Positions 25,938 through 28,762 of a stretch of DNA of 64,000 bases are shown piece after piece. Positions within the stretch are counted from its first letter, which is position 1. Each line of letters begins with the position of its first letter. Source of the DNA: Flavobacteriales bacterium. GTDB taxonomy: Bacteria > Bacteroidota > Bacteroidia > Flavobacteriales > Flavobacteriaceae. The stretch spans positions 1 to 64,000 of the forward strand of contig JAMONV010000059.1 in NCBI GenBank assembly GCA_027066365.1, read 5' to 3'. Under the pieces are notes generated by a model. That model saw only the letters and a list, made by a program, of their open reading frames with translations. It did not search any database and had not been told where the DNA came from. A program made the position numbers and the translations under genes.

Positions 25938-27320
25938 TCAGGCTTTTGGGAAACCCATTTCGTCCAACACTTTGAGATTTTCCGCAATTTGTTCGTCCGT
26001 TACGGAATAATCGTGGATACTGCCTTCGAGGTATTTTTCATAAGCTCCCAAATCGATGTGTCCATGTCCGCTCAAATTGAACAATATGGTTGTTTCTTTG
26101 CCTTGTTCTTTGGCTTTGAGGGCTTCTCTAATGGTTTGTGCCACGGCGTGAGTTGATTCCGGAGCGGGAATGATTCCTTCGGTTCTGGCAAAAAGGACAC
26201 CGGCCTCAAAGCTCTCCAGCTGATGCACGGCTTTGGCTTCAATAATGCCGTCTTTGAGTAATTGACTCACAATGGCTCCCGCACCGTGATAACGCAGTCC
26301 ACCCGCATGAATGGCCGGCGGCATAAAATTGTGCCCTAGCGTAAACATAGGAATCAAGGGGGTCATTCCGATGGTATCTCCGAAGTCATAGCGGAATTCG
26401 CCGCGCGTAAGTTTGGGACACGATTCCGGCTCAACGGCTATGACGCGCATATCTTTCTCTTGCTTAATTTTATCTTGTAAAAACGGAAAACTGATACCCG
26501 CAAAATTGGATCCGCCTCCGAAACAACCGATTACTATATCGGGGTAGGCATCAGCCATTTCCATTTGTTTTTTCGCTTCCAACCCTATAACGGTTTGATG
26601 CAGTAGCACATGATTTAAAACGGAACCCAAAGCATATTTCGTTTGTGGATCTTGAACCGCTATTTCCACCGCTTCGGATATGGCAATTCCCAAGCTTCCG
26701 GGGGAGTCCGGATCTTCCGCAAGAATTTTTCTTCCGGCTTCGGTTAAATCCGTGGGAGAGGGAACCGTATTGGCTTTCCAAATATTCATCATCGTTTTGC
26801 GGTAAGGTTTTTGATAGAAACTTACTTTCACCATAAACACTTGCAATTCCATGTCGAAAAGTTGTGTGGCATAACTCAAAGCACTTCCCCATTGACCGGC
26901 CCCCGTTTCAGTGGTTATTTTCTTGACACCTTCGGCGTGATTATAAAAAGCTTGGGCCACGGCCGTATTAGGTTTGTGTGAGCCGGCGGGGCTGACGCCT
27001 TCATATTTATAATAGATTTTAGCCGGTGTGTCCAAAGCTTTTTCCAATTCGTATGCTCTGATTAGCGGCGAAGGTCTCCAAATGCGGTAAATTTCCCTCA
27101 CTTTGTCGGGTATTTCAATGTAGCGCTCTTGACTGACTTCCTGCATGATAAGCTCCATTGGAAAAAGCGGAGCCAAATCATCCGGCCCTACCGGTTCTTT
27201 GGTGGCCGGATGCAGTGGAGGTAAAGGCTTGCTGGGCATATCCGCCACAATGTTGTACCAAAACTTAGGCATTTCTTCTTCGGGTAAGTAAATTTTTTTC
27301 GGATGTTTTTTTGTGCTCAT
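25938..27320 (-). CDS. trpB2: TrpB2-type tryptophan synthase beta subunit
   Basis: The 460-aa PLP enzyme is of the TrpB2 class, longer than TrpB1 and able to convert indole plus serine to tryptophan without needing a tight TrpA complex. The PLP lysine is in AGSHKPNTA (Lys116), followed by [12 protein letters not shown], the phosphate-binding [10 protein letters not shown], and the C-terminal [11 protein letters not shown]. The frame continues upstream to 27389 through the terminator hairpin, but the ATG at 27320 is the start because residues before it have no family counterpart. The gene stands alone; no other trp gene is in the window. It is preceded by a leader ORF with three tandem Trp codons and a terminator, which points to control by tryptophan supply. 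Confidence 0.95.
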
Positions 27321-27355
27321 ATCGATTATATTTTTGGGTTTATGTTTTCTTTTAT

Positions 27356-27385
27356 AAAAAAAGGCGACCCGCAACGGGTCGCCTT
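27356..27385 (-). terminator. Attenuator terminator in the trpB2 leader
   Basis: On the minus strand AAGGCGACCC pairs with GGGTCGCCTT (10 bp, perfect) around the loop GTTGC and runs straight into seven T. It lies 36 nt before the trpB2 ATG and downstream of the leader promoter, so it would end transcription before trpB2 unless a competing structure forms. Confidence 0.9.
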
Positions 27386-27415
27386 CCATTTTTTGCGCAA
27401 AAACCGATTACGGGC
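27367..27415 (-). promoter_or_regulatory. Possible antiterminator pairing in the trpB2 leader
   Basis: On the minus strand GCCCGTAAT (27415-27407, end of the leader ORF including its stop) can pair over nine positions with GTTGCGGGT (27375-27367), which is the loop and part of the 3' arm of the terminator. Four of the nine pairs are G-U, so stability needs to be computed. If formed, it excludes the terminator. This is inference from pairing by eye. Confidence 0.5.
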
Positions 27416-27476
27416 AAACGAAATTATTCATCCGCCACCACCAGTTCTTTACCGTATTATTCAATAGTAAATGCAT
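27408..27476 (-). CDS. Tryptophan-rich leader peptide (trp attenuation)
   Basis: A 22-codon ORF starts with ATG at 27476 and stops with TAA at 27410-27408. It reads MHLLLNNTVKN, then three consecutive Trp codons (TGG TGG TGG, 27443-27435), then RMNNFVCP. It begins about 18 nt after a consensus -7 element and ends 23 nt before the terminator stem. A hairpin (27436-27427 with 27422-27413, GGCGGATGAA against TTCGTTTGCC, loop TAAT) begins inside the last Trp codon. A ribosome stalled for charged tRNA-Trp would cover it. The arrangement is that of a classical attenuation leader peptide. The peptide itself probably has no function after translation. It is too short to appear in routine gene calls. 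Confidence 0.85.
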   Translation of the reverse strand: MHLLLNNTVKNWWWRMNNFVCP

Positions 27477-27493
27477 CTTGATTTTCTGTATTG

Positions 27494-27524
27494 CAAGTAT
27501 ATGAATTTTTTTTTATTTGACAAA
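27494..27524 (-). promoter_or_regulatory. Promoter of the trpB2 leader transcript
   Basis: On the minus strand TTTG (27524-27521), a 19-nt spacer and TATACTTG (27501-27494; one mismatch) form a good Bacteroidota promoter. It begins 9 nt after the wecC stop codon. Confidence 0.75.
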
Positions 27525-27532
27525 ATTTTCCA

Positions 27533-28762
27533 TTAAGGCAAGGCTTTCACGAAATCCAAAATAATTCTATTTCTATCCCGGGGAATTTTCAGATTTTTAA
27601 ACTCTTTATGCGCTACTAAGAAGGCAATGATATCCGCTTGTTCAATAGCATTTTTATAATCATACAAAGAAAGACCGTCTAAGCTCTGTTGTTTCAGATT
27701 GGGTTCAACGGCTAAAATATCATGCCCTTCATTGTGTAAATATTCGGCAATAAAGAGGGAGGGTGATTCGCGCAAGTCGTCAATATCGGGTTTAAAGGCA
27801 AGTCCCATGGCGGCGATTGTAGGTTTTTTTCCATTTAGATTTTCGAATGCCCGAGCGGTATTTTTAATTTTTTCTATCACCCATAAGGTTTTATAAGTAT
27901 TGACCTCCCGGGCGGTTTTAATCAAGCGTGCTTCATCAGAAAAATCGGAAACGATAAACCAAGGATCAACGGCAATGCAATGTCCGCCTACTCCGGTGCC
28001 GGGTCGTAAGATGTTGACCCGAGGATGTTTATTGGCTAATTCGATGAGTTCCCAAACGTCTATTCCGGCTTTATCTGCAATAAGCGAAAGCTCGTTGGCA
28101 AAGGCAATTTGCACATCGCGGGAGGCATTTTCAACAAGTTTGACCATTTCGGCGGTGCGTGCATTGGTGGGGTAGAGTTCACCGTCCACAAAGCGGGCGT
28201 AAAAATTCATGGCTTTTTGGGTGGAAATTTCATCGATACCGCCGATAGCTCGGCTATTATGGGTCAATTCGTATAGGATTTTTCCCGGCAAAACACGTTC
28301 TGGGCAATAGGCCATGTGAATTTTCCCTTTTAATTCGGGACGTTCCGCTTCAATGAGTGTCAACATCTTTTCGGTGGTTCCCACCGGTGAAGTGGATTCG
28401 ATGATTACCAGATTGCCTGCTTGCAAATGCGGAATAATCATTCTCGTAGCGGATTCCACATACTTCAAATCGGCAGCTTTTTGGTCCGTGACAGGTGTGG
28501 GCACGGCAATCATGAACACTTCCGATGAAGCGGGTTCGGTGGCGGCTTTCAACCGGCCTTCTTCCGTCATTTTTTTGACTAATCCTTCCAAATCGGGTTC
28601 TACGATGTGAATTTCACCGCGGTTAATGGTGTTGACAACTTCGGGATTAATATCAACCCCCAAGACATGATATCCTCTCGAAGCCATCAATGCCGCCGTG
28701 GGCAGGCCGATATAGCCTAATCCCATCATCACTACATTCGGTCGATTATAATCGGGTTTCAT
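27533..28762 (-). CDS. wecC: UDP-N-acetyl-D-mannosamine dehydrogenase
   Basis: The 409-aa enzyme oxidises UDP-ManNAc to UDP-ManNAc-uronate with two NAD, for surface polysaccharide. It shows the Rossmann start VVMMGLGYIGLPTAALMAS, the NAD-domain segment IIESTSPVGTTEKM, the middle-domain AEMVKLVENASRDVQIAFANEL (in two halves) and the catalytic cysteine in GTGVGGHCIAVDPWF. C-terminal AFKPDIDDLRESPS is typical of the UDP-sugar dehydrogenase family. The stop of wecB overlaps its start by four bases, so product and substrate enzymes are made together. Confidence 0.95.
   Translation of the reverse strand: MKPDYNRPNVVMMGLGYIGLPTAALMASRGYHVLGVDINPEVVNTINRGEIHIVEPDLEGLVKKMTEEGRLKAATEPASSEVFMIAVPTPVTDQKAADLKYVESATRMIIPHLQAGNLVIIESTSPVGTTEKMLTLIEAERPELKGKIHMAYCPERVLPGKILYELTHNSRAIGGIDEISTQKAMNFYARFVDGELYPTNARTAEMVKLVENASRDVQIAFANELSLIADKAGIDVWELIELANKHPRVNILRPGTGVGGHCIAVDPWFIVSDFSDEARLIKTAREVNTYKTLWVIEKIKNTARAFENLNGKKPTIAAMGLAFKPDIDDLRESPSLFIAEYLHNEGHDILAVEPNLKQQSLDGLSLYDYKNAIEQADIIAFLVAHKEFKNLKIPRDRNRIILDFVKALP

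Follow-up and report, generated by a model that had tools for sequence, protein, structure and literature searches.

Why a 22-codon reading frame with three consecutive tryptophan codons should lie directly in front of a trpB2 gene that belongs to no trp operon is the question raised by this locus, which was found in a window (the whole stretch of DNA that was analysed) of 64,000 nucleotides from a Flavobacteriales bacterium. The role of TrpB2 in vivo is an old question in its own right, as a second function has been proposed for the enzyme, together with an unidentified role in organisms where the other trp genes are gone (PMC1854888, 2007; this and the other papers are cited from the part of their text that was available). 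A reading of the sequence alone had interpreted the arrangement as trp attenuation, and this interpretation is supported by the genome comparisons described here. A classical ribosome-mediated Trp attenuator very probably controls what appears to be a stand-alone gene of indole salvage; the mechanism is known and its target, a stand-alone salvage gene, is unusual.

The trpB2 locus and its conserved leader

The minus strand carries, in order, a wecC-like gene, a promoter, the leader ORF, a terminator and trpB2, beyond which lies a convergent dihydropteroate synthase gene (Table 1). The trpB2 product scores 667.2 bits against TIGR01415 (trpB_rel), above the curated cut-off of 518.85, and 749.6 against NF009057 (cut-off 366); the TrpB1 model TIGR00263 gives 139.3, below its cut-off of 392.45. 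The best-scoring solved chain is 6hul_B (E 9.2e-133), in an alignment that spans residues 14-431 and includes the SHK..NTA and ETGAGQWG blocks, the lysine of the SHK block being presumably the PLP anchor. The gene is the sole TrpB-type match in the source genome.

Table 1. Features of the trpB2 leader region and the neighbouring genes, in window coordinates
Feature	Position	Strand	Remarks
wecC-like UDP-ManNAc dehydrogenase	27533-28762	minus	upstream neighbour of promoter and leader
Promoter, TTTTG (27525-27521) and Bacteroidota-type -7 box TATACTTG (27501-27494)	27494..27525	minus	predicted, from sequence only
Leader peptide ORF, 22 codons, MHLLLNNTVKNWWWRMNNFVCP and stop	27408..27476	minus	frame and WWW kept in 9/9 genus genomes
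Three tandem Trp codons (TGGTGGTGG), codons 12-14	27435..27443	minus	proposed sensor; invariant in 9/9
Protector (1:2)	27400..27449	minus	from folds; inner hairpin 27436-27427 with 27422-27413, outer helix 27449-27440 with 27408-27400
Strand 2 of proposed antiterminator (CCGUAAUCGGUUUU)	27395..27415	minus	includes leader stop UAA (27410-27408); proposed partner of the terminator's 5' arm and loop
Intrinsic terminator (3:4), GAAGGCGACCCG-TTG-CGGGTCGCCTTT	27360..27386	minus	-21.5 kcal/mol; seven-T run 27362-27356
trpB2 (TIGR01415 / NF009057, TrpB-like PLP enzyme)	25938..27320	minus	candidate regulated gene; ATG at 27320
Dihydropteroate synthase	ends 25878	plus	nearest plus-strand gene identified; convergent with trpB2

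Several claims of the sequence-only reading held. The ORF was found with TGG TGG TGG at codons 12-14 directly before trpB2, its stop codon 87 nt from the gene (82-103 nt across the genus), and the gene does stand alone within the window, the next one being the convergent dihydropteroate synthase. That reading had also proposed looking for the leader ORF, its Trp codons and the hairpins in related genomes, and this comparison bore it out: among 99 genomes searched (the source genome and its relatives) eight others of the genus carry TrpB2 at 82-88% identity, and leader, protector hairpin and terminator precede trpB2 in all nine, with WWW in frame each time. Ahead of the Trp codons the peptide differs among the genomes in both sequence and length, with the frame kept; the start codon is ATG in seven genomes, and L002 and L008 offer TTG only. 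Over the span from Trp codons to T-run, UGGUGGUGGC and UUGxCCGUA show no variation. Judged from these alignments, conservation of the trpB2 leader exceeds chance.

A covariance model of the leader finds one strong copy per genus genome (E 4e-20 to 1.6e-13), always before trpB2, and with stricter filters no second strong copy in the nine genomes; as the model was built from these same genomes, its informative part is the lack of a second strong copy. Within the genus, the weak extra matches either coincide with this site on the other strand or have E 0.07-0.09, and the next matches, at E 1.8e-4 and weaker, fall in other genera. A search of positions 26800-28000 against Rfam release 15 returned 11 matches with E of 5 or less, all of them below gathering score; the sole amino-acid leader among them was Phe_leader, on the plus strand, with 18.6 bits against the 55 required.

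With minus-strand genes on either side, wecC and trpB2, the hairpin could be a mere terminator of the upstream gene and the WWW ORF incidental. We consider this highly improbable. Genes within about 1.5 kb of trpB2 mostly differ among the nine genomes (ORFs of at least 90 codons compared at E 1e-10, with only 612 nt of upstream sequence for L005 and little downstream for L003): a neighbour is shared upstream by L004 and L006 alone, and downstream by L004-L006 and by L002 and L008. Leader and terminator nevertheless stay with trpB2, the WWW is invariant and in frame in 9/9, and a conserved promoter-like box separates wecC from the leader.

The claim that the ORF lies between a consensus promoter and a strong terminator fared unevenly. 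The terminator was confirmed, but the promoter scan, which picked TTGTCA-16-TATACT (10/12), found 2 candidates against a shuffle mean of 2.5, not above chance. The promoter consensus of Bacteroidota is TAnnTTTG, and the box TANNNTTG is conserved at 56-65 nt before the first Trp codon in 9/9 genus genomes, a count with no chance rate attached.

Terminator, protector and proposed antiterminator

In the strand anatomy of E. coli trpL, which is followed here, strands 1 and 2 form the protector, 2 and 3 the antiterminator, and 3 and 4 the intrinsic terminator. The 3:4 hairpins of the genus range from -13.4 to -21.5 kcal/mol and are followed by six or seven T in 9/9 genomes, and the fold of 27490-27320 has z = -3.6, with 0/200 shuffles equally stable. 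The tool used for the promoter scan listed this hairpin on the plus strand only, the likely reason being that stem and T-run are continuous on the minus strand. At 27361-27385 a T-rich stretch (CCATTTTTTG) follows the terminator hairpin on the plus strand as well.

A leader of this kind could sense Trp and still act otherwise than by intrinsic termination, through translational control or Rho or by boosting trpB2 via reinitiation. E. coli tna offers a Rho-type precedent (PMC1262725), and four Bacteroidales-type loci (L051, L056, L060, L079) have hairpins in which no U-run is seen by eye. Within the genus, the six or seven T after every hairpin argue against such control, as does the distance of 28-42 nt between T-run and trpB2 start, which leaves the start codon outside the hairpin. 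Reinitiation has a proposed peak at about 10-16 bp (PMC4833913), far short of the 82-103 nt between leader stop and trpB2. Overall, we regard control of this type as unlikely, and intrinsic termination as the preferred reading.

The predicted protector consists of two helices. The inner hairpin starts within the third Trp codon; in the outer helix the region before and at the first Trp codon pairs with CCGGUUUG-like sequence from the stop codon onward, and so occupies part of the antiterminator strand. In the genus alignment 85.8% of cells are paired over both helices, compared with 31-58% when the helices are slid by one to three columns; the inner helix reaches 93.8% and the outer 77.8%, being weak in G004, G007, G001 and G005. 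The covariation score of the protector was equalled by 3/500 shuffles. Of the five protector measures, two are unremarkable: 63/500 shuffles reach the observed number of pairs with both partners changed, and 214/500 reach another.

For the antiterminator, nascent RNAs ending after the terminator loop were folded with a ribosome stalled on the Trp codons. By minimum free energy, strand 2 (CCGURRC plus spacer) then forms pairs with both the 5' arm and the loop of the terminator in 9/9 genus leaders, a count that stands for at least one stall position per leader; in L001 this requires the ribosome to be on the third Trp codon, and in L004 and L005 the outer helix is cut to three pairs plus inner pairs. 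With the ribosome modelled as a 15-nt footprint that begins at the first base of Trp codon 1 or 3, the mean pair probability of the outer helix is 0.49-0.99 in nine of nine leaders; with no ribosome at all it is 0.00-0.98 over the nine, so that the untranslated state is not clearly "off" in every one of them. An alternative in which strand 2 merely copies the 5' arm (a 2:4-only antiterminator) was dropped, as the nascent folds show pairing with the 5' arm plus loop.

The antiterminator helix is paired in 93.8% of alignment cells, against 21-43% when slid, and the covariation of its outer helix within the genus is not beyond that of shuffles (85/500 reach the score). Taken leader by leader over a wide stretch, complementarity in the genus is without significance (p 0.06-0.50 over the nine); a narrower stretch, picked after the fold had been seen, gives single-leader values of 0.008-0.134. 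A broader comparison took ten leaders, comprising one from the genus and 9/14 others with an evident terminator (L051, L056, L060, L079 and L122 being omitted, and L015 and L016 sharing one genus). In this set the complementarity test between strand 2 and the terminator (its 5' arm and loop) gives a Fisher combined p of 1.7e-6 (single p 0.003-0.26), and 1.3e-6 when the genus leader is removed. The signal is clearest in L110, the spirochaete (-25.1 kcal/mol, p 0.003), and in L045 (p 0.007).

The leader, its WWW, the protector and the terminator, with their conservation, come from comparison of genomes; from their arrangement we infer ribosome stalling and the switch as follows. Transcription would begin just upstream, and a ribosome would translate the 22-codon leader behind the polymerase. 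With ample Trp-tRNA it would reach the stop codon, and because this codon lies within strand 2, a ribosome finishing the leader would by geometry cover that strand; the terminator would then form and trpB2 would not be transcribed. With Trp-tRNA scarce, the ribosome would stall on UGGUGGUGG and cover strand 1, so that strand 2 became available to the 5' arm and loop of the terminator; pairing there would delay the terminator and allow readthrough and production of TrpB2. By joining scavenged indole to serine or phosphoserine TrpB2 would yield Trp and close the loop.

Missing pathway genes, probable indole salvage and leaders in other lineages

In the genus, 0/9 genomes have TrpA (PF00290) over the cut-off, 0/9 have TrpC (PF00218) and 0/9 have TrpD (TIGR01245), each model being positive in 14/14 control genomes. 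Two genus genomes contain sub-threshold PF00290 fragments (E 2.5e-4), and similar fragments occur beside a true TrpA in other genomes. TrpB1 was not found either, as the TrpB2 protein used as query at E 1e-3 gives one TrpB-type match in each of the nine genomes, six of which have a completeness of 90% or more and a contamination of 5% or less. With no TrpA, TrpC or TrpD found and one TrpB-type gene per genome, de novo synthesis of Trp seems to be beyond the host, and TrpB2 probably salvages indole. On this gene content, its natural substrate is probably indole scavenged from outside, there being no evident internal source. The sequence-only reading had taken TrpB2 for a true tryptophan-producing enzyme; the role in Trp supply is supported, but in a sharper form, in which the indole would come from outside the cell and not from a TrpA of its own.

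The leader is not confined to the genus. Tandem-Trp ORFs, for which an ATG start, a length of 8-40 codons, WW and a position no more than 400 nt upstream of trpB2 were required, were found at 12/113 other loci, against 1.25 expected from shuffles and 4/331 for other long ORFs of these loci, taken as controls. The 113 loci comprise 78 of 80 from named contigs (the best 80 of at least 565 confirmed matches), 28 from a class sample, in which 28/395 genomes besides the source genome have TrpB2, and 7 from relatives. Three loci were dropped before counting: L031, which is identical in sequence to genus genome G003 (no other near-identical pair was present), L017 (G080, TrpA-negative), where the contig ends 112 nt upstream, and L059 (G521, TrpA below cut-off), with 6 nt upstream. 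An order sample, with TrpB2 in 8/395 genomes besides the source genome, added three new loci, two with leaders (NNNWWWQSF and NNNWWWTSS) followed by terminators and a third with none.

The twelve leaders include NNNWWWQSF in Bacteroidetes OLB9, NNWWRTW in a Sphingobacteriales MAG, NTNWWYHK in a Flavobacteriales MAG, NWWRTS and HWWRTL in two genomes of family f9, LSWWCTSW in G389 and AWWWWNN in a Spirochaetota genome. Four Bacteroidales-type MAGs, one a Lentimicrobium, have WSWWWP (twice), WSWWRS and WAWWPA; the weakest case is L122 (G375, FWWYK), which is TrpA-positive and has no terminator that could be seen.

Some of these loci depart from the genus in layout. In the four Bacteroidales-type MAGs (L051, L056, L060, L079) the leaders, of WSWW, WSWWW or WAWW type, start 200-308 nt before trpB2, and by eye a GC hairpin of the GGGAGC..GCTCC type, lacking a U-run, follows the leader well before the gene; it is perhaps another way of ending transcription. 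The WWWW leader of the spirochaete L110 starts 302 nt before trpB2 and is followed by two terminator-like hairpins in a row, in a genome where TrpA, TrpB1 and TrpD are all present. Five loci of family f58, genus g125 (L136-L140, all the TrpB2 genomes of that genus in the class sample, each with TrpA below the cut-off), have a short ORF in which Trp codons alternate with others (WVW, often GWxWVW); it starts 179-357 nt before trpB2 and is a candidate leader of a kind without tandem Trp codons.

Leaders and TrpA tend to exclude one another. TrpA is over the cut-off in 2/22 leader genomes and in 78/97 leaderless TrpB2 genomes, in a table put together by hand from which L122 (G375) and the five TrpA-negative f58 genomes with WxWVW ORFs were left out. 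Fisher's test gives 4.3e-10, or 2.2e-6 with the genus counted once, values that ignore kinship and come with no completeness given for the named MAGs; with L122 (G375) added as a leader genome and the genus again counted once, p is 8e-6. The remaining 19/97 leaderless genomes also lack TrpA over the cut-off, which means that presumed salvagers often have the leader but can do without it; no Trp leader was found in these 19, of which 15 and L183 were inspected by eye and L103, L105 and L109 by script only.

TrpB1 is over the cut-off in seven of 23 genomes tested for both proteins, and the identical seven have TrpA, among them the leader genomes G091 and G497. TrpD passes in three of 25 genomes tested (G091, G497 and G496). 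In G496 (L079) leader and TrpD occur with neither TrpA nor TrpB1 over the cut-off, which may reflect a partial pathway, an incomplete MAG or contamination. Genus g60 of family f9 contains both states: L015 (G091) has TrpA, TrpB1, TrpD and the leader, and in L016 (G067) only TrpB2 and the leader were found. On gene content the leader in g60 may be older than the loss of the pathway.

These distributions also bear on a reading in which the attenuation is real and TrpB2 serves something other than salvage, such as serine deamination. Serine deaminase has been proposed as the second TrpB2 function, and an unidentified selective role has been argued for Pyrococcus horikoshii (PMC1854888); the TrpB1 and TrpB2 proteins tested there, however, had poor serine deaminase activity (PMC1854888). 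Control by Trp codons would link expression to Trp supply, and the leader is commonest where TrpA is missing. We therefore think a non-salvage role very unlikely and infer indole as the in vivo substrate.

Beyond the genus, we think it fairly probable that this form of indole-salvage control is widespread in Bacteroidota and present in at least one spirochaete, such that cells losing trpA and trpB1 keep TrpB2 under a Trp-codon attenuator and uncharged tRNA-Trp switches on scavenging. If so, the distribution of leaders points to Trp synthesis from external indole as the role of TrpB2. A switch that reads Trp-tRNA and occurs in front of trpB2 only, in a genus with no trpA, trpC or trpD detected, would be regulatory evidence for a role in Trp supply. 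It would extend Trp leader-peptide attenuators to Bacteroidota and a spirochaete, and would be a case of a salvage gene that retained or acquired attenuation once the pathway had been lost.

Comparison with known systems

In 2010 leader-peptide systems were stated to have been shown only in Proteobacteria and Actinobacteria, before the Firmicutes cases of that same paper (PMC2965389). Clues to leader-peptide attenuation in Bacteroidota exist for Flavobacterium psychrophilum (PMC9723704) and Bacteroides thetaiotaomicron (PMC7366714), which belong to the same phylum, but the main texts of these papers, as far as available, make no mention of tryptophan. The open-licence literature, in the text that was available, yielded no account of a Trp leader preceding a stand-alone trpB2 in Bacteroidota.

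Candidate Trp attenuators precede trpB2A and trpB1EDGC in Corynebacterium diphtheriae (PMC1262725), where, as here, one stands upstream of a gene named trpB2. This likeness is one of gene name, and the trpB2 of that actinobacterium heads an operon with trpA. In Bifidobacterium, external indole is reported to be salvaged by tryptophan synthase (PMC11085991).

Another remnant of the Trp pathway, the trpRBA operon of Chlamydia trachomatis, turns scavenged indole into Trp, and a WWW motif in YtgCR couples it to Trp supply. Its Trp-dependent control runs via YtgR, and attenuation in cis has been called an outstanding question (PMC7755916). The repressor acts in trans, and the annotated trpL is long, without consecutive Trp codons and unvalidated, according to the available text of the same paper (PMC7755916); the flavobacterial locus, in contrast, has a compact cis element, and TrpB2 without TrpA.

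The leader would work like E. coli trpL, where the ribosome stalls at WW (PMC7755916). Unlike that leader, which precedes trpEDCBA, the one described here stands before a single stand-alone trpB2 in the phylum Bacteroidota, has three Trp codons and a stop codon inside the antiterminator strand, and belongs to a host with no detected trpA, trpC or trpD. Like trpL, it combines tandem Trp codons in a short leader with a protector 1:2 and an intrinsic terminator 3:4, between which an antiterminator 2:3 may form, and a tandem-Trp ORF between promoter (by sequence) and gene, a terminator and a protector are present in 9/9 genomes of the genus.
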